DNA from: Martelella sp. HB161492
Lineage (GTDB): Bacteria; Pseudomonadota; Alphaproteobacteria; Rhizobiales; Rhizobiaceae
Assembly (NCBI RefSeq): GCF_013184775.1
Contig: NZ_JAATVV010000005.1
Location: 186,001 to 250,000, forward strand
DNA length: 64,000 bases
Direction of reading: 5' to 3'
The position numbers and the translations under genes are program-made. The notes under the pieces were generated by a model. It did no database searches, was not told the DNA's origin, and saw nothing but the letters and a program-made list of their open reading frames with translations. Shown piece by piece: positions 42,031-57,060 of the stretch (the stretch's first letter is position 1; each line of letters begins with the position of its first letter).

Positions 42031-43443
42031 TCAGGCGCCCGCGTTTGCGAGGTCCTTGACGGCATCAATGATGCGGATCCAGGACCGGATGCCCTTGTGG
42101 AAGGACGCCAGATTGTATTTTTCATTGGGGGAATGGCCGTTGTCATCGGAAAGACCGAAGCCGACGAGCAATGAATTCATGCCGAGCGTGGTCTGGAAAT
42201 CGCCGACAATCGGGATCGAGCCGCCGCCGCCGGTGACAATGGCGGGCTTTTGCCATTCCTCGGAAAGTGCGGCCTTGGCGGCACTCAGCAGGGGCGATTC
42301 ATAGGGCAGTTGCACGGCTGCTGCCGCACCATGGCCGATGAAGTCAACGCGGCAGTCGGCTGGAATATGCGCCTTCACATAGCTGCGGAAGCTGTCGCGG
42401 ATCTTCTCGGGATCCTGCTTGCCGACCAGGCGGAACGAGATCTTGGCTGACGCTGTGGCGGCAATCACCGTCTTGAAACCCTGTCCCTGGTAGCCGCCGG
42501 TAATGCCGTTGACCTCTGCCGTCGGCCGCGCCCAGTTCAGTTCGAGCATCGAGCGGCCCTTTTCCCCGACTGGAATGGACAGGCCGACCTCGTGCATCAT
42601 GTCTTCCTGCTTGCTTTCCAGGCTTGCCCATTTGGCCTTCAGCTCTGCCGGCGTCTCTGCAACGCCATCATAGAAGCCCGCAAGGGTCACCGCGCCGGTC
42701 TCATCATGCAGGCCGGCAACGATCTCGGAGACGATGTGTATCGGGTTGGCCGCCAGCCCGCCAAAGCCACCGGAATGCAGATCCCGGTTGGCCGCGTGGA
42801 CAAAGATCTCCTCGCTGACCATGCCGCGCAGTCCAGCACAGATGGACGGTGTATCGCGGTCCCACATGCCGGTATCACAGACCATGGCAAAATCGCCCTT
42901 CAGCGCTTCGACATTGTCTTTCAGAAAGGCTGGCAGGGATTTGGAGCCAGCCTCTTCCTCGCCCTCGAACAGGATGGTGAGGTTGAGCGGTATCGCGCCT
43001 TTGACGTCCTTGTAGGCGCGGATGGCCTCAACAAAGGTCATCAGCTGACCCTTGTCGTCATTGGCACCGCGTGCGGCGATCACCTTGTCGCCTTTGGGGC
43101 TGAGCCGCAATTGCGGCTCGAACGGGTCGCTGTCCCACAGGTTCAGCGGATCGACGGGCTGCACATCATAGTGACCGTAAAACAGGACATGCGGCCGGTC
43201 CGGGCGGTCGGCGGCATGATGGGCGAGAACGACGGGGTGACCCTCGGTGTCGCACACCTTGGCGGAAAAGCCGAGCGTCTCAAGATAGCTGGAAAGAAAG
43301 CCGGCGGCCTTGCGGCATTCGCCAGCATATTCGGGATCGGTGGAAATGGATTTGATCCGCAGCAGATCAAAGAGCGTGTCCAGGCTGGAGGTGAGATTTT
43401 CGTCGACCTGGGCCAGCACGGTTTCGATGGCATTCTTGGGCAT
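42031..43443 (-). CDS. M20 family dipeptidase (metallopeptidase)
   Basis: A 470-residue cytosolic peptidase. The zinc ligands are visible: H91 and D93 in FYGHYDVQP, the bridging aspartate in RGANDDKGQ (about D129/D130), and the catalytic glutamates in EGEEEAGS (about 160-166). A lid/dimerisation domain follows (about 210-370) and the C-terminal part ends with GHSPNEKYNL, carrying the last histidine ligand. It hydrolyses dipeptides or N-acyl amino acids. Divergent from the peptide ABC operon at 43780, sharing a promoter region with a FadR-like site at 43553. Confidence 0.92.
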   Translation of the reverse strand: MPKNAIETVLAQVDENLTSSLDTLFDLLRIKSISTDPEYAGECRKAAGFLSSYLETLGFSAKVCDTEGHPVVLAHHAADRPDRPHVLFYGHYDVQPVDPLNLWDSDPFEPQLRLSPKGDKVIAARGANDDKGQLMTFVEAIRAYKDVKGAIPLNLTILFEGEEEAGSKSLPAFLKDNVEALKGDFAMVCDTGMWDRDTPSICAGLRGMVSEEIFVHAANRDLHSGGFGGLAANPIHIVSEIVAGLHDETGAVTLAGFYDGVAETPAELKAKWASLESKQEDMMHEVGLSIPVGEKGRSMLELNWARPTAEVNGITGGYQGQGFKTVIAATASAKISFRLVGKQDPEKIRDSFRSYVKAHIPADCRVDFIGHGAAAAVQLPYESPLLSAAKAALSEEWQKPAIVTGGGGSIPIVGDFQTTLGMNSLLVGFGLSDDNGHSPNEKYNLASFHKGIRSWIRIIDAVKDLANAGA

Positions 43444-43563: not shown

Positions 43564-43779
43564 CCTACCATTATTCCCGCTATCGCCAATGTCAAGCCTT
43601 GCACGGCTGCGAGGGGTAAGGCCCGAATATTTCCTGAAAAGTCACGAAGTAACAAGCATATAATGCATTGCACAAATAGCTGTCCTGTCTTTCAGGGATA
43701 GAAAATGGCGATAAATGCCGTTCCACAGGGGAATAACAACGTGGCGTCACTGTCACGGAAAATAAACTGGAGTCTTCCA

Positions 43780-45396
43780 ATGAAAAACCGCTATCTTTTC
43801 GGTCTGGCTGGCGCCGCGATGCTGTGCCTTGCCGCCGGGTCCGCCTATAGTTTTGATGGCATGAGCGTTGAGGCGCCCAATTGCGACTATGGTGGGAAGA
43901 TCAAGTCGATCGTCGCAACGGATGAGCATACCGTGACCTTCACTATGTGCTCTCCTGACCCGGCCTTTGAGGCCAAGGCTGCTTTCGTAGTCTTCGGCAT
44001 CCAGCCGTCTGAGCATATTGCCGAGGCTGGCCCGAAGGGCGCATTGCTGGACGATCCGATCGGTACCGGTCCGTTCAAGCTGGAAAGCTGGAACCGCGGC
44101 GATTCCATCGTCATGACCCGCAACGATAACTACTGGGGTGACGAACCCGCCTACAAGACGCTGGTGATGCGCTGGAACGATTCGGGCGCCGGCCGTCTGA
44201 ACGAGCTGCGCGCCGGCACGGTCGACGAGATCACCAATATCAGCCCCGACGATTTCGATGGCGTCAAGGCCGATCCTGATCTGCAGTTCCTGCCGCAGCC
44301 CGCCCCGAACGTGCTCTATCTCGGCATGGTCAACACCTTCAAGCCATTCGACAATGTCAAGGTGCGTCAGGCCATTGCCATGGGCATTGACCGTCAGCGT
44401 ATCGTTGACAATTTCTATCCCGCCGGATCCGAGGTCGCGTCGCACTTCACGCCCTGCTCGCTGCCGAATGGCTGCGCCGGCGATGACTGGTATTCTTTCG
44501 ATCCCGATGCTGCCAAGAAGCTTCTTGCCGAGGCCGGCTATCCGGATGGCTTCAAGACCAAGATCTATTATCGCGATGTGTTCCGCTCCTATCTGCCGGA
44601 GCCGAGCGTGATTGCGGTCGAATTCCAGACTCAGCTGAAGCAGAATCTCGGCATTGATGCCGAAGTCGTGCCGATGGAGTCGGGTGAGTTCATCAGCCAG
44701 GCCAGCGCTGGCGCGCTCGACGGCTTCTTCCTCCTGGGCTGGGGTGCGGACTACCCGCATGTGACCAACTTCCTCGATTATCACTTCACCAAGGGCACCA
44801 AATCCTTCGGCGATGCCATCCCGGAAGTCTATGAGCCGCTGATCAAGGCCTCCACCATTGCCGATGTGGCCAAGGCCGAGCCGCTCTATGCCGAAGCCAA
44901 CAATGCGCTGAAGGAATTCGTTCCGATGGTGCCGATCGTTCATGGTGCCTCGGCCTATGCTGCCCGCGCCAATGTCAAGAACGCCATCGTCCGTCCCTTT
45001 GGTGCGCCGCGTCTGCAGGATGAGGATCCGGGCAAGGACACGCTGGTCTTCATGCAGAATGCCGAGCCGATCAGCCTTTACTGCGGTGATGAAACCGATG
45101 GTGAATCGCTTTCCGCCTGCACGCCGATCACCGAAGCCCTGTTCGATTACGCCAAGGACAGCGGCGAGATCGTTCCGGCTCTGGCAACCGCCTGCGATGC
45201 CAATGACGACTCGACGGTTTACACCTGCCATCTGCGCGAAGGCGTGAAATTCACGGATGGTTCGGATTTCGACGCCAATGACGTCGTTGCTTCTTGGGCC
45301 GCCGGTATCGATGCCTCCAATCCGGCCCATGTCGGCAATACCGGTGCCTTCGATTATTATACCTATCTCTGGGGCAGCTTGATGAACGCCAAGTAA
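43780..45396 (+). CDS. Peptide-type (family 5) ABC substrate-binding protein, circularly permuted
   Basis: A 538-residue receptor from the ATG at 43780 (GGAG upstream) with a Sec signal (about 1-24). The usual order of SBP_bac_5 is altered. After the signal it starts in what is normally the region near residue 130 (KIKSIVATDEHTVTFTM, 40-56), goes through GTGPFKLESWNRGDSIV, VRQAIAMGIDRQRIVDNFYP and the domain III region, and ends with what is normally the mature N-terminus: TLVFMQNAEPISLYCGDETD, ALFDYAKDSGEIVPALAT, then LREGVKFTDGSDFDANDVVA (about 418-538). The fold can still close because the termini are near each other. First gene of the peptide importer at 45463-49499. Confidence 0.85.
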   Translation: MKNRYLFGLAGAAMLCLAAGSAYSFDGMSVEAPNCDYGGKIKSIVATDEHTVTFTMCSPDPAFEAKAAFVVFGIQPSEHIAEAGPKGALLDDPIGTGPFKLESWNRGDSIVMTRNDNYWGDEPAYKTLVMRWNDSGAGRLNELRAGTVDEITNISPDDFDGVKADPDLQFLPQPAPNVLYLGMVNTFKPFDNVKVRQAIAMGIDRQRIVDNFYPAGSEVASHFTPCSLPNGCAGDDWYSFDPDAAKKLLAEAGYPDGFKTKIYYRDVFRSYLPEPSVIAVEFQTQLKQNLGIDAEVVPMESGEFISQASAGALDGFFLLGWGADYPHVTNFLDYHFTKGTKSFGDAIPEVYEPLIKASTIADVAKAEPLYAEANNALKEFVPMVPIVHGASAYAARANVKNAIVRPFGAPRLQDEDPGKDTLVFMQNAEPISLYCGDETDGESLSACTPITEALFDYAKDSGEIVPALATACDANDDSTVYTCHLREGVKFTDGSDFDANDVVASWAAGIDASNPAHVGNTGAFDYYTYLWGSLMNAK

Positions 45397-45462: not shown

Positions 45463-46542
45463 ATGCTTGGATATGCAGCCAAACGCGTGCTGGTCTCTGT
45501 CCCGGTGATATTCGGTATTCTCGTCGTCACCTTTGCGCTCGCCCGCCTTATTCCGGGTGATCCATGCCGCGCCATGCTTGGCGACAAGGTGTCCGACGAA
45601 ACCTGTGCCGTTTTCACCGTGCAATATGGCCTGGACAAGCCGATCACCACGCAGTTTCTCGTCTATGTCAACGACATAGCCCACGGCAATTTCGGCGAAT
45701 CCATTCGCTTTTCCCGTCCCGTGACCCAGATCATGATCGAGCGTCTGCCGATGACGATCGAACTGTCCCTGATGGCATTGTTTGTTGCCACCATTGTCGG
45801 GATCGGTCTCGGCATTCTGGCCGCAAGGCGTCATAATTCGGCAGCGGATGTCGGTACGATGATGCTGGCCAATGTCGGCATATCGATGCCGGTTTTCTGG
45901 CTTGGTCTGATGCTGGCCTATGTTTTCGGGGTGCTTCTGCGCGGTACGCCCTTCTGGCTGCCGCCATCGGGCCGGCTGTCGGCCGGTGTCAGCTCCGTGC
46001 CGTTCTACGAGGTCTGGCATCTGCAGTTCGTGGCCGGCTCCACCTGGGCAAAATTCCTCGAATTCCTCTCCAATCTCTACATTCTCAATGCGCTGGTGAC
46101 GGGCAACTGGCCGGTGTTCTGGGATGCGATCCGGCATATGATCCTGCCGGTGATCGCGCTTTCGACCATCCCCATGGCGGTGATCGCCCGGATCACCCGC
46201 TCGTCATTGCTCGATGTGCTGGGCCGCGATTACATCCGTACCGCCCGGGCCAAGGGCGTGCTGGAGCGCAAGGTGGTCCGCCGCCATGCACTTGGCAATG
46301 CGCTGCTGCCGGTCGTCACCATTCTTGGACTGCAGATGGGCGCGCTGCTCGGCGGGGCGGTTCTGACGGAAACCGTCTTCGGACTGGCCGGCGTCGGACG
46401 CATGCTGGTCGACGCCATTTTCGCGCGGGATTATCCGGTGGTTCAGGCTTTCACCGTGCTGATTGCGATTGCCTATGTGGTGATCAACCTGATCGTCGAT
46501 CTCTCCTACTCATATCTCGATCCGCGCCTCAGGCCGCAATAG
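45463..46542 (+). CDS. Peptide ABC transporter permease (DppB/OppB type)
   Basis: A 359-residue permease from the ATG at 45463; the TTG 12 nt upstream is less likely. It starts MLGYAAKRVLVSVPVIFGIL and has six hydrophobic segments, a periplasmic insert typical of DppB (about 45-95 and 160-225), and the EAA-like loop YIRTARAKGVLERKVVRRHALGNALLP in pieces. Part of the operon SBP-B-C-D-F. Confidence 0.92.
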   Translation: MLGYAAKRVLVSVPVIFGILVVTFALARLIPGDPCRAMLGDKVSDETCAVFTVQYGLDKPITTQFLVYVNDIAHGNFGESIRFSRPVTQIMIERLPMTIELSLMALFVATIVGIGLGILAARRHNSAADVGTMMLANVGISMPVFWLGLMLAYVFGVLLRGTPFWLPPSGRLSAGVSSVPFYEVWHLQFVAGSTWAKFLEFLSNLYILNALVTGNWPVFWDAIRHMILPVIALSTIPMAVIARITRSSLLDVLGRDYIRTARAKGVLERKVVRRHALGNALLPVVTILGLQMGALLGGAVLTETVFGLAGVGRMLVDAIFARDYPVVQAFTVLIAIAYVVINLIVDLSYSYLDPRLRPQ

Positions 46543-46550
46543 GACCCGTC

Positions 46551-47504
46551 ATGACACGTCTGAACAAGGTTTCCGCCGCCGTGGCGGACAATATCAGCGA
46601 AGAGGGTCTGATCGGCGATCCGGTTCCCCTGTGGAAGCAGACCTGGCTACGTCTGCTGCGAAAGCGTTCCGGCCAGATCGGCCTCGCCATTATCGGCATT
46701 CTTCTGCTCGTCGCCATTTTCGCGCCGGTAATCGCACCCTATGATCCGAACGAGGTTCTGATCGGCATTGAAAAGGTCAAGCGTCGCGAGCCGCCCTGTA
46801 TCCATCTTCTTGGCTGTCCGGCGGAACATCCCCAGCATTTGATGGGGATTGACGGCAATACCCGCGATTACTTCTCGCGTCTCGTCTATGGCTCACGCAT
46901 CAGCCTGATGATCGGTCTCACGACGGTGAGTGCGGCGCTGATTGTCGGCGTCTTTCTGGGTGCCATATCCGGCTATTTCGGTGGCTGGATCGACAATATC
47001 GTGATGCGGATCATGGATGTGATCCTGGGCTTCCCATCGCTGTTGCTGGCCATCGCCATTGTCGCGGTGCTGGGGCCGGGGATCGTCAACGCGCTGCTTG
47101 CGATATCGATTGTCTCGGTGCCAGCCTATGCGCGGGTGACACGCGCAAGCGTCCTGTCGGTGAAAACGCTTGATTTCGTTGCGGCGACCCGTGTGCTTGG
47201 CGGCAGCAAGTGGCGGATCCTCTTCCGCCGCGTCCTTCCCAATGCGCTGACGCCGATTGTGGTTCTGGCAACGCTCGGCATTGCAACGGCCATTCTCGAT
47301 GCTGCCGGTCTCTCCTTCCTTGGCCTCGGCGCGCAGCCGCCCATGGCTGAATGGGGAACCATGCTCGGAACGGAGCGCAACCAGATCTTCTCCGCACCGC
47401 ATCTGGTCTTCTTCCCGGGGCTGGCGATCATGATCACCGTGCTGGGCTTCAACCTACTGGGCGATGGTCTGCGTGATGCGCTTGACCCGCGCCTGAACAC
47501 GTGA
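46551..47504 (+). CDS. Peptide ABC transporter permease (DppC/OppC type)
   Basis: A 317-residue permease with a cytoplasmic N-terminal tail (about 1-40) and OppC_N motif RKRSGQIGLAIIGILLLVAIFAPVIAPYDPNE in pieces. The coupling loop is DFVAATRVLGGSKWRILFRRVLPN, followed by LSFLGLGAQPPMAEWGTML. Pairs with DppB. Spacing 8 bp each side. Confidence 0.93.
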   Translation: MTRLNKVSAAVADNISEEGLIGDPVPLWKQTWLRLLRKRSGQIGLAIIGILLLVAIFAPVIAPYDPNEVLIGIEKVKRREPPCIHLLGCPAEHPQHLMGIDGNTRDYFSRLVYGSRISLMIGLTTVSAALIVGVFLGAISGYFGGWIDNIVMRIMDVILGFPSLLLAIAIVAVLGPGIVNALLAISIVSVPAYARVTRASVLSVKTLDFVAATRVLGGSKWRILFRRVLPNALTPIVVLATLGIATAILDAAGLSFLGLGAQPPMAEWGTMLGTERNQIFSAPHLVFFPGLAIMITVLGFNLLGDGLRDALDPRLNT

Positions 47505-47511
47505 GGCGGAC

Positions 47512-48528
47512 ATGACAGGACCCATCCTAGATATTCGCAATCTGAGCACGGTTTTCGAAACGCGCGCCGGTACGGCGACGGCGGTGGACCGGGTCTCGAT
47601 CCGGCTCCAGGCCGGGGAGACCCTCTGCGTTGTCGGCGAAAGCGGCTGCGGCAAGTCGGTGACGGCCATGAGTATCATGGGGCTGGTCGCCTATCCCGGA
47701 AAGGTCGTCGGCGGCGAGATCCTGCTTGATGGCGATGATCTGACTGAGAAGTCGCCGGACGCGTTGAGCCGTATTCGCGGCAACCGCATTTCGATGATCT
47801 TTCAGGATCCGTCATCCTCGCTCAACCCGGTGCACACCGTTGGTGCCCAGATTGCCGAGGTCTTCATGCTGCACCAGAATATGGGCAAGCGCGAAGCAGC
47901 GGTGGCGGCCGAGAAGATGCTCGCCGATGTCGGCATTCCCGATGCGGCGCGTCGGATGAAGGCCTATCCGCATGAAATGTCCGGCGGCATGGCCCAGCGG
48001 GTGATGATAGCCATGGCGCTTGCCTGCCGGCCGGAGGTGCTGATCGCCGATGAACCAACCACGGCGCTGGACGTGACGATCCAGGCACAGATCCTCGATC
48101 TGATGCGTGACCTGCAGCGCGATTTCGGGACCGCAATCATCCTCATCACTCATGATCTCGGGGTCGTGGCTGAAATGGCGGACAATGTTGCGGTCATGTA
48201 TGCCGGCCAGGTGGTGGAATATGCCGATGTCCGCAGCCTGTTCAGGGCGCCGGAGCACCCCTATACCCAGGCGCTCCTGCGCTCCGTTCCGGTGATTGGC
48301 GAGGAAACCGAGGAACTGGAAGTGATCTCCGGGCGGGTGCCGCAACTGACGCAATTGCCGCCGGGCTGCCTGTTCTCACCGCGCTGCGCGGCCAGACAGC
48401 AGGAAAATGAACCACGCTGCGAGACAGAGCGGCCGCCGATTGTCGGGACCGGCGGGGGGCGCAGCTGTCGCTGCTGGCTCGTTGAGGGCGAGACGGACAT
48501 GGCCGGAAGTAAGGTGGAGCAGGCATGA
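47512..48528 (+). CDS. Peptide ABC transporter ATP-binding protein (DppD/OppD type)
   Basis: A 338-residue ATPase: Walker [10 protein letters not shown] (about 42-50), signature MSGGMAQRV (about 159-167), Walker [13 protein letters not shown]. The C-terminal oligopeptide_ABC domain has [18 protein letters not shown] with the four-cysteine iron-sulfur-like motif found in OppD/DppD. It overlaps the next ATPase by 4 bp. Confidence 0.93.
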
Positions 48529-49499
48529 CAACATTGCTCGAAGTCAACAATGTCACAATGAACTTCACCATCCGCGGCGGTCTGCTGCAAGGCGTCAAGG
48601 GGGAAGTGAAGGCGGTCAACAGTGTCAGCCTGGCGATCGAAAAGGGCCGCACCCTCGGCGTGGTGGGCGAGAGTGGCTGTGGCAAGTCGACACTGGCGCG
48701 CATCGTCGTTGGTCTGTTTCCGCCGAGTGAGGGCGAGATCCGTTTCGACGGGCGCCAGATCGCCAGCGCCGGCGGCCAGTCAGATGTCGATGTCAGCAAG
48801 CGGATCCAGATCATCTTTCAGGATCCCTATTCATCGCTCGATCCGCGTCAGCCGATCGGCAATTCCATTGCCGAGGGTCTGGTGATCCACGGTATCGGGG
48901 ACCGGCAGAGCCGCCGCAAGGCGGTACTCGATATCCTGCAACTGGTGGGCTTGCCGCCACAGGCAGCGGACCGCTATCCGCATGAATTTTCAGGTGGTCA
49001 GCGTCAGCGAATCGGGATCGCCCGCGCCCTTATCCTCGAACCGGAATTCGTCGTTTGCGACGAGCCGACCTCGGCACTTGATGTCTCGGTTCAGGCTCAG
49101 ATCCTCAATCTTCTGAAACGGCTGAAGAGCCAGCTGGATCTGACCTTGATGTTCATTTCGCACAATCTGGCGGTGGTGCAATATATCGCCGACGATGTTC
49201 TGGTCATGTATCTCGGCAATGCGGTTGAAATGGCACCCTCTGCGACGCTGTTTTCCAATCCGCGCCACCCCTATACGCGGGCGCTTCTGTCAGCGACGCC
49301 GATTGCCGATCCTGACCGGCGCGGTCAGCGCATCAAGCTTTCCGGGGAATTGCCGTCGCCGCTCAATCCACCGAGCGGCTGCCCGTTCCATCCGCGCTGT
49401 CCGCTGGCCAATGATCGCTGCAAAAGCGAGGCTCCGGCCATCATCGCGGCGGGTGAAAGCCGCGTGGCCTGCCACGCCGTTGAAGAAGGGCGGGACTGA
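48525..49499 (+). CDS. Peptide ABC transporter ATP-binding protein (DppF/OppF type)
   Basis: A 324-residue ATPase: Walker [10 protein letters not shown], signature FSGGQRQRIG, Walker B FVVCDEPTSALD, then HPYTRALLSATPI and the cysteine-rich tail CPFHPRCPLANDRC. Last gene of the importer; the GntR-type regulator gene is convergent, 40 bp beyond. Confidence 0.93.
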   Translation: MTTLLEVNNVTMNFTIRGGLLQGVKGEVKAVNSVSLAIEKGRTLGVVGESGCGKSTLARIVVGLFPPSEGEIRFDGRQIASAGGQSDVDVSKRIQIIFQDPYSSLDPRQPIGNSIAEGLVIHGIGDRQSRRKAVLDILQLVGLPPQAADRYPHEFSGGQRQRIGIARALILEPEFVVCDEPTSALDVSVQAQILNLLKRLKSQLDLTLMFISHNLAVVQYIADDVLVMYLGNAVEMAPSATLFSNPRHPYTRALLSATPIADPDRRGQRIKLSGELPSPLNPPSGCPFHPRCPLANDRCKSEAPAIIAAGESRVACHAVEEGRD

Positions 49500-51521: not shown

Positions 51522-52412
51522 TCAGCGACCTTTCAAAGTGGGATCGAGTGCATCGCGTAGGCCATCGCCGAACAAGGTGGTCGCGAGAATGGCAAGTGCG
51601 AGGGCGGCGGTGGGGAAAACCGCCATGAACCAGTAGAAAAACATGAAATCCATACCGACATTGATCATCTGCCCCCAGCTTGGAACCGGCGGCGGAATGC
51701 CGATGCCGAGAAAGCTGAGGCTGGCCTCCAGCATCATGGCAAGCGGAATCGCCAGCACGAATCCAACGATGACCGAGGATATGGCATTCGGGATCAGATG
51801 GCGCCAGAGGATATACCACGACGAGGCGCCGAGTGCGTGCGCTGCCGTAACGAACTCCTTTTCGCGCAGGGCCTTCACCTGGGCCCGGACAAGGAGGCAG
51901 ACCTGAACCCAGCCGAACAGGGCGGCAATGAAAACAATGGTGGTAAAGCCGCCGCGGGTGATGGTGCCCAGAAGCAGCGCCGCCAGTAAGGGCGGAACCA
52001 CCGAAAACAGTTCGATCACACGCATGATGACCCAGTCGGTGCGACCGCCATAATAGCCGGCCAATGCCCCGAGCGGCAGGCCGATCGCCACCGCACCGGT
52101 CGCCGACAGGAAGCCGATGCTGAGGGAAACCCTGGCACCGTAGACAACGCGGGTGAACAGATCACGACCGAGATCATCGACACCGAACCAATGTTGGAAC
52201 GACGGAAAGGATAGGGCCTCCATCAGGAAGTCCTGGTCATTATAGCCCTGGCCCGTAATCACCGGCGCGAAGATGGCCGCGATGATGATGACCAGCAGGA
52301 TGATGCCAGAGAAAAGCGCACCCCGATTGGCGGCGAGACGGCGCCAGGCAAGAGAGAGTGGGCTCAGTTGGCGGTTGGCGTTTGAACCGGACACGACCCG
52401 AATATCGCTCAT
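51522..52412 (-). CDS. Peptide ABC transporter permease (DppC type, second operon)
   Basis: A 296-residue permease: OppC_N-like start SLAWRRLAANRGALFSGIIL, membrane segments, and coupling loop FVTAAHALGASSWYILWRHLIPN followed by ASLSFLGIGIPPPVPSWGQM. It overlaps dppB by 4 bp and is followed by the aminotransferase gene after 1 bp. Confidence 0.92.
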   Translation of the reverse strand: MSDIRVVSGSNANRQLSPLSLAWRRLAANRGALFSGIILLVIIIAAIFAPVITGQGYNDQDFLMEALSFPSFQHWFGVDDLGRDLFTRVVYGARVSLSIGFLSATGAVAIGLPLGALAGYYGGRTDWVIMRVIELFSVVPPLLAALLLGTITRGGFTTIVFIAALFGWVQVCLLVRAQVKALREKEFVTAAHALGASSWYILWRHLIPNAISSVIVGFVLAIPLAMMLEASLSFLGIGIPPPVPSWGQMINVGMDFMFFYWFMAVFPTAALALAILATTLFGDGLRDALDPTLKGR

Positions 52413-53338
52413 TTGCGGCCTCCGACGCGAATGCGCGGATTGATCAGCGCATAGACGATATCCGACAGCAGGAAGGAAAGGCAGAACAGCATGGTGATCA
52501 TCAGCATCAGGGCCATTTCCAGCGGATAGTCACGGGTCTCGATGCTTGACACGAAATAGGTGCCGAGGCCCGGCACGCGGAACATCGCTTCGACAAAGAT
52601 CGAACCGGTCGCCGTGCCGATGAACATCGGCAGGAAGACGGTTACCATCGGAATGGCAGAATTGCGCAGCACGTGCTGGAAAATGATCCGCCGTTCCGAA
52701 AGCCCCTTGGCGCGCAGCACGGTGACGAAGGGCTTGTTCAGCGTATCGAGCATGGCCGAGCGAGTGTAGCGGGAATAGGTCGCCATCGGAATGGCAGCAT
52801 AGGCTGCAATCGGCAGGATCCATTTCTTCGGTTCGCCCCAGCCCGAGGCCGGCAGCCAGTTGAGCCAGACGGCGAAGACGAGGATCAGCAGCATGGAGAT
52901 AACGAAGACCGGTACGGTGAGGCCGAGCGTTGCAACCGCCGAGGCGATGTAGTCGATCGGGCTGTTGCGTTTCAATGCCGCCGCCATGCCGAGCAGAATA
53001 CCGAGCGGTGCGCCGATCAGGACGCCGAGCCCGCCAAGGATCAGGCTTGGCGGCCAGGCGCGCGCCAGAAGCGCGATCACGGTTTCGCCCGGGCTTTGAT
53101 AGGGCACGCCGAAATCGAAATGCATGACGCCCTTCATATAGTTGAGATACTGCACATAGAGCGGTTTATCGAGGCCCAGTTCGGCCATCAGCTTGTCGCG
53201 TACTGCCTGTGACAGTGGCATGTCCTGCGCATCGAAGGGGCCGCCGGGAATGGAATGCATCATCAGGAAGATCAGAAGCGAGACGACAAAGAAGGTCAGG
53301 GCGATGGAGATGAGGCGGCGGAGGATATAAGTCAGCAT
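52409..53338 (-). CDS. Peptide ABC transporter permease (DppB type, second operon)
   Basis: A 309-residue permease from the ATG at 53338 (GGAG upstream); an upstream in-frame extension runs into the ATPase gene and is not needed. It begins MLTYILRRLISIALTFFVVS and has the GGPFDAQDMPLSQAVRDKLMAELGLDKPLYVQYLNY block in pieces, plus the coupling loop FVTVLRAKGLSERRIIFQHVLRN. Partner of the DppC at 51522. Confidence 0.92.
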   Translation of the reverse strand: MLTYILRRLISIALTFFVVSLLIFLMMHSIPGGPFDAQDMPLSQAVRDKLMAELGLDKPLYVQYLNYMKGVMHFDFGVPYQSPGETVIALLARAWPPSLILGGLGVLIGAPLGILLGMAAALKRNSPIDYIASAVATLGLTVPVFVISMLLILVFAVWLNWLPASGWGEPKKWILPIAAYAAIPMATYSRYTRSAMLDTLNKPFVTVLRAKGLSERRIIFQHVLRNSAIPMVTVFLPMFIGTATGSIFVEAMFRVPGLGTYFVSSIETRDYPLEMALMLMITMLFCLSFLLSDIVYALINPRIRVGGRK

Positions 53339-53348
53339 GGCGTTCTCC

Positions 53349-54269
53349 TCAGCGTTCGATGCGGGCTTCGACAAAGTGACCCGGGGCGATTTCAGCAAGC
53401 CGCGTTCCCGTGTTCGTGGGAACCAGCGGCGTGACGAGCTCGGCAGCTGAGAAAGCCGGAATAGCGGCAGCGATCTCCTCGGCCGTTGCGAAATGGCGTC
53501 GCCTGCGGGCACGCGGATCCATCACTGGAACAGCGTTCAGCAAGGCGCGCGTATAGGGATGGCGGGCATTCTGAAAGATCATTTCTGTCGGCGCCTTTTC
53601 CACCACCCGGCCATGATACATCACCACTAGCTGGTCGGTGAGCGAGCGTACCACGCTCAGATCATGGCTGATGAACAGGATGGAGAGCCCCATGTCAGCC
53701 TGTAGATCCTGCAGCAGGTTGACGATCTGCGCCTTGACCGAAACATCGAGCGCCGAAGTCGGCTCGTCGGCAACCAGAACTTTCGGCTTCAGGATTAGCG
53801 CGCGGGCGACGGCGACGCGCTGGCGCTGGCCACCGGACAGTTCATGCGGATAGCGATTGGCATAATCGCGCGAAAGGCCGACGCGCTCGAACCAGGAGAG
53901 GGCTTCCTGGCGCTGCGTGCGGCGCGTGCCGATCCTGTGGATGCGCAGGGGCTCGGCGATGATGTCGGCCAGCGTCATCATCGGGTCGAGCGCCGAATAG
54001 CTGTCCTGGAAGATGATCTGCATGGCGCGGCGATGTGGTCGCATGGCAACGGGGCTGAGTGCGGTAATGTCCATGCCGCTAAGCAGAACCTGGCCGGCGG
54101 TAATCTCGGTCAGCCGCATCGCCATCAAGCCGGTTGTGCTCTTGCCGGAGCCGCTTTCTCCGACCAGGCCGACAATGCTGTTTTCCGGCACGACAAGATC
54201 GACTGCATCGACGGCGCGCAGCGTGTCGTAATCCTTCGTCAGGGCGCGCAGTTCAAGGGCAGGGGGCAT
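53349..54269 (-). CDS. Peptide ABC transporter ATP-binding protein (DppF type, second operon)
   Basis: A 306-residue ATPase starting at the ATG at 54269, which overlaps the preceding stop (TAATG). Walker [10 protein letters not shown], signature LSGGQRQRV, Walker B VLVADEPTSALD, then HPYTRALLNAVPVMDPRARRR. The C-terminus lacks the usual cysteine cluster. Confidence 0.92.
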   Translation of the reverse strand: MPPALELRALTKDYDTLRAVDAVDLVVPENSIVGLVGESGSGKSTTGLMAMRLTEITAGQVLLSGMDITALSPVAMRPHRRAMQIIFQDSYSALDPMMTLADIIAEPLRIHRIGTRRTQRQEALSWFERVGLSRDYANRYPHELSGGQRQRVAVARALILKPKVLVADEPTSALDVSVKAQIVNLLQDLQADMGLSILFISHDLSVVRSLTDQLVVMYHGRVVEKAPTEMIFQNARHPYTRALLNAVPVMDPRARRRRHFATAEEIAAAIPAFSAAELVTPLVPTNTGTRLAEIAPGHFVEARIER

Positions 54270-55234
54270 TAGCTGAGCCTCCAGCAAGCGGCCTTGCGAC
54301 CGGTATCAATGGTTTCCAGCGCGGGCATTTCGGCCGCGCAGCGCGCCTCCGCCTTGTCGCAACGTGGCGAGAACGGGCATCCGGCTGGCGGACTGGCGGG
54401 ATTTGGTGACGCGCCTTCAATGGCGATCAGCCGCTGCCGCCCGGCTGTCTGGCCGGGAACACTGCGTAAGAGCGCCTGGGTGTAAGGGTGGCGTGCATCG
54501 TCAAACAGGGTTATCACCGGCGCTTCCTCCATGACCTTGCCGCCGTAAAGCACGACGACCCGGTCCACCGTCTCGGCAATGACGCCGAGATCATGGGTAA
54601 TCATGATCAGCCCCATGCCGAATTCGGCCTGGAGATCCTTGATCAGCTGAAGGATCTGCGCCTGGATGGTGACATCAAGGGCGGTGGTCGGCTCGTCGGC
54701 GATCAGGAGCCGTGGCTGGCAGGAAAGCGCCATGGCAATCATGGCGCGCTGCAGCATGCCACCGGAAAGTTGGTGCGGGTAGCTGTCGTAAACAGTGGCG
54801 GCGTTGCGGATCTCAACCCGCTCGAGCGATGCTTCGGCCTCGCTCCGGGCGTCTGCCTTGCTGCATTTGCGGTGGGTGCGGATGGTTTCGGAAAGCTGAT
54901 GCCCGATGGTGAAGACCGGATCGAACGAGCTCATCGGATCCTGAAAGACAAGGGCGGCAACTCTGCCGCGCAGATCGGCAAGCTGGCGTTTTGACGCCTT
55001 CAGCAGATCGACACCATCAAGCGTGAGAGCCGCGGCCTCCGTCTGCGCCGGCGGCTCGCGCAGTAGCCGCATCAGCGCCATGCAGGTGACGGATTTTCCC
55101 GAGCCGCTCTCGCCGACAATGCCGAGGCTTTCGCCCTCATCAATATGAAAGGAGACACCGCGCACGGCCTGCACGTTCCCCTCATGCTGGCGGAAACTGA
55201 CATGGAGATCGCGGATCTCTGCTAGCTTGGTCAT
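54269..55234 (-). CDS. Peptide ABC transporter ATP-binding protein (DppD type, second operon)
   Basis: A 321-residue ATPase from the ATG at 55234. Walker [11 protein letters not shown]-loop [12 protein letters not shown], signature LSGGMLQRA, Walker [13 protein letters not shown], and tail [14 protein letters not shown] with the OppD-type cysteines. An upstream in-frame start would add 26 unconserved residues. Confidence 0.92.
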
Positions 55235-55308
55235 TGCAATGGCATGTCCTGGTGGAGGCAATCGAGGCCTGTTCCCGGCGAAGTCGCCGGGAACAGCGGT
55301 CTGGCGGC

Positions 55309-56913
55309 TCACTGCTTTTCAATATGGGTGTAGAAATAGTGAGCCAGACGGTTGAGCGGCGTGAAGCCCTGCTTGTTGGGTTCAACGCCTTCGCCGGATA
55401 GCTTGTCGGATACCAGCGCGACGGTGATCGGATGGACCAGCGGAATGAAGGCCGCTTCGTCGATCAGCACCTCTTCGGCCTGTTCGTAGAGCTTGACACG
55501 CTCGTCCCAGGATGTCCCGGCATCGGCCTGCTTGATCAGCGTGTCGAAGCGGGGAATCTCATAGCCATGACGGCCGCCCGTGTAGAACAGGCCGAAGAAG
55601 TTGGACGGGTCGAGATAGTCATATTCATATGGCGCCAGGAACAGGTTGTTCTTCTTGTTCAGCAGGGCATCCATCCAGTCATTGATCGGCATGACGCGGA
55701 TCTTCATGGTGATGCCGAGTTCCTTTTTGAACTGGGCCTGCAGATATTGCAGCATGGGCGGGGTAATGGCGCCATTATAGCCGCCCTGTTCACGGTACCA
55801 GATTTCGATTTCCGGAAAACCCTTGCCGCCAGGATAGCCGGCGCGGGCCAGATAATCGCGCGCCTTGTCCGGGTCAAAGACCGCCAGATCGGCGATTTTC
55901 TGGCTGTAACCGGGATAGCCCGGAGCCAGCAGCGAACGTCCCGGAATTGCAAGGTTTTTCAGCACGGTCTGGGTCATCTCATCGCGGTTGATCGCATACC
56001 AGAGCGCCTTGCGGACATCGACATTGTTGAAGGGGGCGGAATCAAGATCGAAGGAAATATAGGAGACTGCGAAGACCGCGTTCTTGCGGATCTGGTCGGG
56101 GAAACGCTTTTCGGCAAAGGGAATCTGGCCGGCATTGAGCGAGGTCCAGTCGGTTTCACCCGCGAGGTAGGCGGGCATGCCGACTTCGGGCGCACCGAGA
56201 TCGCTGTCGATGTAAAGCTTGTCCAGCTTGGCCTGCCACGGGCCGTGATAGTCCGGGTTCTTCTCCATCATCATCGAGTTGTTGGATTTTTCCCAGCTGG
56301 TGATCTTGAATGGACCCGAGGCCAGCAGCGTATCGACATTGACGGCCCAGTCGTCACCATATTTGTCCCACTGATGTTCAGGCACCGGATACCAGAGACT
56401 GACAACGCTTGGCAGATAGGGTTTCGGCGTTGCCGTGGTGACGGAAATCGTGTGGTCATCAACGGCCTTGATGCCGAGTGTATCGACATCCTTTTCGCCT
56501 TCGGTCACAGCCTTCCAGTTTGCAATGCCACCGGCAAAATCCCAGTACCAGGCAAAATCATAGCCCTCGGTCGCGGCGCGCTTGAGCGCGAATATGTAAT
56601 CGCCGGCCGTCAGTGGTTCACCATCGCTCCAGACCAGATCCGGCTGCAGATGAAAGGTCCAGGTCAGGCCGTCGTCGCTGACCTCCCAGCTCTCAGCCGC
56701 CATCGGCGTCAGCGTGTAGTCCTTATCGAAGGTGGTGAGTGGAATCTGCGTCAGCTCCGGCTGGCCGGCGCGGGCATAGACGGTTTTCATGTAATCTGCA
56801 TAGGTCCCGGTCTTGCTATCCCCGGGGGCAGTCATCTGGCTTTCGGCGGCGGCTGGCAGCACCATCGACAGGGACATGAACCCCGCCATTATGGCCTTGG
56901 CGACAAAATTCAT
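55309..56913 (-). CDS. Peptide-type (family 5) ABC substrate-binding protein, second operon
   Basis: A 534-residue receptor with a Sec signal (MNFVAKAIMAGFMSLSMVLP to AAA-E). It has the normal domain order: LTPMAAESWEVSDDGLTWTF and WSDGEPLTAGDYIFALKRA early, HTISVTTATPKPYLPSVVSL next, then VRKALWYAINRDEMTQTVL and the domain III region. This contrasts with the permuted receptor at 43780. First gene of the operon SBP-D-F-B-C-aminotransferase (-gntR). The promoter region upstream has a FadR-like site at 57075. Confidence 0.93.
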   Translation of the reverse strand: MNFVAKAIMAGFMSLSMVLPAAAESQMTAPGDSKTGTYADYMKTVYARAGQPELTQIPLTTFDKDYTLTPMAAESWEVSDDGLTWTFHLQPDLVWSDGEPLTAGDYIFALKRAATEGYDFAWYWDFAGGIANWKAVTEGEKDVDTLGIKAVDDHTISVTTATPKPYLPSVVSLWYPVPEHQWDKYGDDWAVNVDTLLASGPFKITSWEKSNNSMMMEKNPDYHGPWQAKLDKLYIDSDLGAPEVGMPAYLAGETDWTSLNAGQIPFAEKRFPDQIRKNAVFAVSYISFDLDSAPFNNVDVRKALWYAINRDEMTQTVLKNLAIPGRSLLAPGYPGYSQKIADLAVFDPDKARDYLARAGYPGGKGFPEIEIWYREQGGYNGAITPPMLQYLQAQFKKELGITMKIRVMPINDWMDALLNKKNNLFLAPYEYDYLDPSNFFGLFYTGGRHGYEIPRFDTLIKQADAGTSWDERVKLYEQAEEVLIDEAAFIPLVHPITVALVSDKLSGEGVEPNKQGFTPLNRLAHYFYTHIEKQ

Positions 56914-57060
56914 CGCGATTCTCTCCTGATTGACAACGACACTGTTCCCGATGGGCTTGTCAGCACAGGCGCTGCCGGCTGATGCCCGTTTTTTCCGCCT
57001 CGGTTTTGTCCCGAGGTCGGTTGACCGAATGCTCCGAACATAGTCGAAGACCCGGAATAA

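Follow-up and report, generated by a model that had tools for sequence, protein, structure and literature searches.

The two-lobed receptors of ATP-binding cassette (ABC) importers have been studied intensively, and rearranged versions are engineered for use as sensors. The best-matching described system for the protein discussed here is DppA of Escherichia coli and relatives, a member of the solute-binding protein (SBP) family SBP_bac_5 (PF00496), which we take to be a 'cluster C' receptor. Natural permutations of ABC receptors are hardly known, and the one presented here falls in the peptide-receptor class. In the literature, judged mostly by titles and the openings of abstracts, TpMglB-2 (Tp0684) of Treponema pallidum was the only natural permuted ABC receptor recognised, and a report from the peptide class was not found. 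TpMglB-2 is a glucose-binding protein of 'Type Ic / Cluster Bc', in which the N-terminal strands of a lobe have come to lie near the C-terminus, and its family occurs in several lineages (PMC4990184). Here we analyse a 64,000-nucleotide stretch of Martelella sp. HB161492 (contig NZ_JAATVV010000005.1, positions 186,001 to 250,000; hereafter the window, numbered from its first letter) which carries, at 43780..45396 on the plus strand, the gene of a circularly permuted SBP_bac_5 receptor of 538 amino acids (P0002), recognised by Pfam, PDB matches and a predicted model. A first-pass annotation made from the sequence had proposed this permutation and placed the gene correctly. It appears to reflect a single ancient permutation that has been successful among peptide receptors.

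The likeness to DppA extends to the parts of the protein by sequence, to the predicted fold, to both residues that bind the ends of a dipeptide, and to the five-gene importer type in which the gene stands. The differences are that the receptor here is permuted, that it has four cysteine pairs nearly absent at these columns in the normal-order rows examined, and that the linked permease carries a Cys pair near its N-terminus. TpMglB-2, for its part, is a Type I / Cluster B sugar receptor whose permuted part is described (PMC4990184) as poorly conserved and provided with a large insertion, whereas the permuted part here is recognisably homologous to DppA. No homology to galactose or glucose receptors was seen among 60 of 97 PDB matches by sequence and 60 of 114 by profile, and those listed matches bear the names of peptide, nickel, haem, sialic-acid or opine receptors, of the family-5 kind. 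The glutathione- or haem-named receptors GbpA and HbpA (3m8u, 3tpa) are among the best sequence and fold matches and have the same Arg and Asp, but their segments stand in normal order.

Swapped segment order in the receptor gene

The open reading frame (ORF) of the receptor is unbroken from 43705 to 45396, or from 43780 if counted from its MKNRYL start. Behind a signal peptide called by eye from the sequence (residues 1-24, 43780..43851) comes the body segment (residues 34-418, 43879..45033), which corresponds to residues ~149-529 of DppA (5f1q_A) and comprises the rest of lobe 1, lobe 2 and the old C-terminus. The moved block D1 (residues 420-538, ~119 residues, 45037..45393) follows, and corresponds to the N-terminal ~115 mature residues of DppA. 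Alignment with normal-order relatives places the join between the old C-terminus and the old mature N-terminus at residues 407-419 (FGAPRLQDEDPGK, 44998..45036), where a second signal-peptide relic was not seen in the rows inspected by eye. Many relatives from Chloroflexota have a lipobox-like Cys in place of the signal peptide; 23 of 52 aligned rows have a Cys at the position of residue 9.

Pfam SBP_bac_5 matches the receptor as two stretches in swapped order (E 3.8e-83, 280.1 bits against a cut-off of 32.4), and a phmmer search of the PDB likewise aligned receptor residues 38-412 with DppA residues 149-529 and residues 421-528 with DppA 30-144 (independent E 7.2e-43 and 6.6e-8, respectively). 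When the parts were re-typed in the order of DppA, both comparisons gave a single stretch, with phmmer joining residues 4-497 to 31-527 of 5f1q_A at 191.2 bits (185.5 natively) and Pfam scoring 288.4 bits, against 280.1 in the native order. The suggestion that the last ~120 residues are the usual mature N-terminus is thus borne out. The NCBIfam equivalog DppA_dipep gave the receptor 192.9 bits, below its curated cut-off of 1005. Since the protein matches the family profile while its mature N-terminus does not come first, as in the linear order of the family, it is, on the sequence evidence, a permuted branch of SBP_bac_5. The window's other receptor (55309-56913), named in the first-pass annotation as an internal comparison, does have the normal order and gave one colinear Pfam stretch.

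Two ways in which the permutation might prove spurious were raised at the outset: an artefact of sequencing or assembly, and a C-terminal domain with no relation to the SBP N-terminus. We consider the chance of either to be negligible, since the block does match the N-terminus of DppA and the order recurs in genomes of many sources. In fact, a scan of genome contigs, with taxa read from record titles, returned 79 related loci, of which 76 align colinearly with the receptor, join included, for more than 380 residues, at identities of 34-100%. The other three (L093, L097 and L100) are fragments at contig ends, and L097 nonetheless spans the join.

Predicted fold and distribution of the permuted branch

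Structure prediction, another check proposed in the first-pass annotation, yielded a confident model. The AlphaFold2 model of the receptor, built with 52 family members, has a mean predicted local distance difference test score (pLDDT) of 92.5 and a predicted template modelling score (pTM) of 0.87, against 92.3 and 0.89 for the control, a normal-order relative (L160) modelled with 19 sequences. In both models the front block runs through one series of eight elements, E H E E E E H H, which closes the permuted model and opens that of L160. Foldseek aligned the permuted model with DppA (5f1q_A) over 388 columns with a template modelling (TM) score of 0.63, and the L160 model over 531 columns with a TM score of 0.80, the difference to be expected if an aligner that keeps to sequence order can follow the body only. 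A two-lobed DppA-like fold is thus a prediction of the model, with the Foldseek match of the receptor following the body. Among 60 of the 114 matched PDB sequences no solved structure in the permuted order was found, all of them matching the family profile as two stretches.

By record title, carriers belong to Pseudomonadota, Chloroflexota and Actinomycetota, and the titles include Rhizobium, Allorhizobium, Agrobacterium, Martelella, Devosia, Pseudooceanicola, many Chloroflexota and Acidimicrobiia. Within the Alphaproteobacteria the distribution is patchy, with matches in 2 of 13 genomes of the genus at E 1e-60 and, at E 1e-70, in 2 of 247 genomes of the family, 1 of 385 of the class and 1 of 349 of the phylum, the source genome being part of every count. 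As samples, these sets lack carriers that the scan of 79 loci had brought up. In the phylum of the genome with the Thermoflexus locus (L058), 58 of 301 genomes match at E 1e-55, and their 60 matches divide into 39 permuted and 21 normal, the former including one cut by a contig end (G305) and one with an internal stop (G085). In that of the genome with the Acidimicrobiia locus L075, 18 of 396 genomes match at 1e-70, with 6 permuted and 12 normal. A set of 20 genomes gave 20 permuted matches and 16 others, of which 14 begin in the front block and 2 inside the body. On plasmids no match to the receptor was present at E 1e-100. The first-pass annotation had called such a permutation rare; this has to be qualified, as the data fit a single old event with descendants now in at least three phyla, and a natural case in another SBP class has been published (PMC4990184).

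Pocket residues, cysteine pairs and the linked importer

Two residues of the receptor speak to its ligand. R269 (44584..44586) aligns with R383 of E. coli DppA, which binds the carboxylate of the dipeptide, and D324 (44749..44751) with D436, which binds the amino group (both in E. coli precursor numbering). Each is kept in 51 of 52 rows and, in a larger set of 88 permuted proteins, the column of R269 has Arg in 86 and that of D324 has Asp in 87. All of the 13 nearest normal-order rows have both residues as well; of 17 that are more distant, 4 have the Arg and 6 the Asp.

The genes that follow on the same strand complete an importer: a permease of DppB/OppB type (45463..46542; BPD_transp_1 and BPD_transp_1_N by Pfam, start codon by eye), a permease of OppC_N type (46551..47504), and two ATPases of the oligo/dipeptide type (47512..48528 and 48525..49499). 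Upstream, on the minus strand and divergent from the receptor, lies an M20 peptidase (42031..43443), whose best NCBIfam match is PRK09104 (759 bits, cut-off 327), and which also matches PRK08201 'dipeptidase' (447 bits, cut-off 441). A permease gene comes next to the receptor on the same strand in 69 of the 73 loci with at least 1.2 kb downstream, and a second permease too in 65; an ATPase is in range in 36 of the 73, part of the loci being too short to tell, and in L042, L043 and L047 an ATPase relative is absent over several kb downstream. An M20 relative stands upstream in 12 of the 15 proteobacterial loci examined (L022-L035 and L037); those without it are L032 and L033, which have less than 3.5 kb upstream, and L034, with 6 kb. 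In the Rhizobium locus L023 the importer is accompanied by an M20 peptidase, a Cys/Met-type pyridoxal phosphate enzyme, and a gene whose best NCBIfam match, below the cut-off, is the Xaa-Pro dipeptidase PepQ. Because R269 and D324 are kept, the permease is linked, and M20 peptidase genes adjoin, the comparison of sequences supports uptake of peptides, most likely dipeptides.

The four Cys pairs are C35 (43882-43884) with C57 (43948-43950), which would form a disulfide across the first strands past the new N-terminus (43882..43950), C226 with C232 (44455..44475) and, within the moved block, C435 with C447 (45082..45120) and C472 with C483 (45193..45228). Among the 88 permuted proteins, both cysteines of pair 226-232 are found in 79 and neither in 9, both of pair 435-447 in 85, neither in 2 and the first alone in 1, and both of pair 472-483 in 75 and neither in 13. 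At the columns of the last pair most normal-order relatives have Trp and Phe. Complete pairs, in the order 35-57, 226-232, 435-447 and 472-483, number 0, 0, 1 and 1 in the 13 nearest normal-order rows and none in 17 others; a second, overlapping normal-order set gave 0, 0, 1 and 1 of 21, and none of 16. Because the cysteines are gained and lost in pairs, the alignment points to disulfides. The deep rows L120 and L118 have pair 35-57 and lack three and two of the others, respectively, so that this pair may be the oldest.

The first permease carries a Cys pair of its own near its N-terminus, C35 (45565) and C48 (45604). A pattern search found the pair in 118 of 120 permease ORFs from permuted loci, a count in which one gene may recur. 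Of the two ORFs without a hit, that of L156 carries both cysteines in a variant motif, and that of L033 is incomplete. None of 16 permeases close to normal-order relatives, and none of 20 further ones, fits the pattern. By eye, the permease of the normal-order system L163 also shows a Cys pair, in a variant motif, and the permease pair may consequently predate the permutation; L163 is possibly close to the ancestral operon. In E. coli DppB, residues 32-62 form a scoop motif which contacts DppA (PMC12136057), and positions 35 and 48 of the permease lie in this range, by numbering alone. It could be imagined that permuted receptor and permease have co-evolved into a separate peptide-importer class, in which the N-terminal, often lipid-anchored end of the receptor has moved to a different part of lobe 1, and in which disulfides in the receptor and near the permease N-terminus let redox conditions beyond the cytoplasmic membrane govern docking or the release of peptide; we see this extension as unlikely.

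Origin of the permutation and competing explanations

Taken together, we find it very probable that the gene encodes a working dipeptide receptor of a DppABCDF-like importer, permuted once by rearrangement of a single gene, which kept its fold and pocket and spread between phyla. Its product would be the secreted receptor of such an ABC importer, and the linked permease is presumably where it docks. The ancestor would have been a receptor gene of normal order, most likely in Chloroflexota, that was rearranged once, through a route of duplication, fusion and trimming, by which the old C-terminus came to be joined to the old mature N-terminus. Both old termini are expected in lobe 1 of such folds. 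The break that made the new ends would lie in the loop that leads from the final helix of the N-terminal block into the next strand, with fold and dipeptide pocket retained and the new N-terminus probably pinned by a disulfide, and the permuted gene would then have spread horizontally between phyla. Since normal-order relatives exist, the effect of moved ends on folding, docking and anchoring can be tested in natural pairs. Further cases may be easily overlooked, because Pfam and NCBIfam report a family-5 receptor without flagging the order of its parts.

The trees agree with a single event. Front and body halves were aligned separately, and in FastTree trees of 118 sequences (88 permuted and 30 normal), whether joined, front-only or body-only, no normal-order row falls inside the permuted set (support 0.907, 0.875 and 0.92), the next rows outward coming in all three from one pool of 13 normal-order proteins. 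IQ-TREE under LG+C20, run as a quick search with no bootstrap on 40 permuted and 37 normal rows, put the permuted rows on one side of one branch with a Shimodaira-Hasegawa approximate likelihood ratio test (SH-aLRT) value of 100. The program flagged long branches among distant normal rows, and also eight rows, of which L168, L176 and L113 are permuted, for an unusual composition. When the tree is drawn with a midpoint root, the permuted rows that branch off early come from the Chloroflexota searches, and the two alphaproteobacterial rows left after thinning, that of the window and one of Devosia, are nested well inside, near Chloroflexota and Acidimicrobiia rows; from this we infer an origin in Chloroflexota followed by horizontal spread. 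Since the normal-order rows were selected for resemblance to the permuted consensus, or taken from a small number of genomes, there may be a closer sister.

A number of observations sit less comfortably with this account. The nearest normal-order rows vary between trees, and some steps are weak, with support of 0.44 for the joined tree and of 0.0 and 0.742 for the front-only one. L119 (locus L096), from a metagenome-assembled genome titled Gammaproteobacteria, pairs with the deep row L118 (locus L095), a misfit to a purely Chloroflexota base. Traces of the proposed route were not encountered either. A doubled query of front, body and front (consensus, 626 amino acids), which an intermediate with a tandem fusion should match from end to end, found no such match among those listed in overlapping sets of 20 (E limit 1e-30), 301 (1e-55), and 385, 396, 247 and 349 genomes (1e-70), with just 3 to 5 first-look candidates per genome scored in the five larger sets, so that weak intermediates could escape; a front block on both sides of the body was likewise found in 0 of 176 and 0 of 194 ORFs, repeats of the same gene included. 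A resemblance seen by eye between the stretch before C35 and the C-terminal tail, taken as a possible remnant of duplication at both ends, proved to be at chance level in 40 proteins and was dropped: its score was equalled by 71 of 200 shuffles and by 28 of 77 windows placed elsewhere. L184 and L176 have longer C-termini, of which the end served as the tail. As to the first putative disulfide, 71 of the 88 permuted proteins have both cysteines of pair 35-57 at their exact columns and 17 have residue 57 alone; some Cys lies within ~9 residues of the start of the body in 87 of 88, which is not proof of its partnership with C57.

The variation between trees bears on whether the moved block came from the same gene at all. 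A body deprived of its front end might have been fused to the front end of a paralogue, a doubt similar to one voiced for TpMglB-2 (PMC4990184), and in the front-only tree the nearest normal-order row is indeed L164 alone, unlike the nearest rows of the joined tree. In the front-only and the body-only tree alike, the permuted proteins nevertheless have their neighbours in one and the same group of 13 normal-order relatives, some steps with low support, and the TDGES motif of the front block is common to L163 and L164, partial in L162 and missing from L160. We therefore judge a second parental gene to be very unlikely, and rearrangement of a single gene remains the preferred explanation.

The pocket, too, admits more than one reading. 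GbpA/HbpA-type receptors keep the same Arg and Asp in the alignment, and the ligand could for this reason be glutathione or another small peptide. The permutation would then be real and the specificity other than for general dipeptides, for instance for glutathione, gamma-glutamyl or otherwise modified small peptides, in keeping with the third rank of GbpA with bound glutathione (3m8u) among the PDB matches of the model, and with a conservation that is high for a broad receptor across phyla (mean column identity 57% over 52 rows). That both residues holding the ends of a dipeptide are kept, and that the importers of the window and of Rhizobium adjoin the peptidase genes described above, speaks against it, and we regard such a ligand as possible, short of probable.

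Finally, in some lineages the permuted receptor could act as a sensor, or as an orphan with no importer of its own. No permease relative was found in loci L090 and L099, nor in the 9 kb of L168, a second permuted copy in genome G182, and in L095 and L096 the permease pair lies next to the receptor on the opposite strand. With a permease next on the same strand in nearly all testable loci, and still adjacent in L095 and L096, this seems distinctly improbable, and a receptor serving the linked importer is the reading that we retain.

Other observations in the window and related genomes

A second, normal-order peptide importer operon lies near the first (51522-56913). In the source genome 38 stretches match the receptor, some of them two per gene, which suggests many receptor paralogues; the receptor gene is the sole match to the whole query, the other 37 listed stretches being partial. 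Of the two permuted copies in the genome G182, the one other than L168 is canonical. A match in G149 spanning residues 4-528 was considered as an intermediate and rejected, because it reads through a TAG stop, and the gene concerned (L167) is in normal order. In the Chloroflexota loci L091 and L094 another peptide-importer operon stands directly upstream of the permuted one; its receptor is more distant, and it includes two permeases and two ATPases. Both receptor genes of the window are overlapped by long antisense ORFs (43753-45330 on the minus strand, 525 amino acids, and 55432-56982 on the plus strand, 516 amino acids), probably a side effect of base composition.
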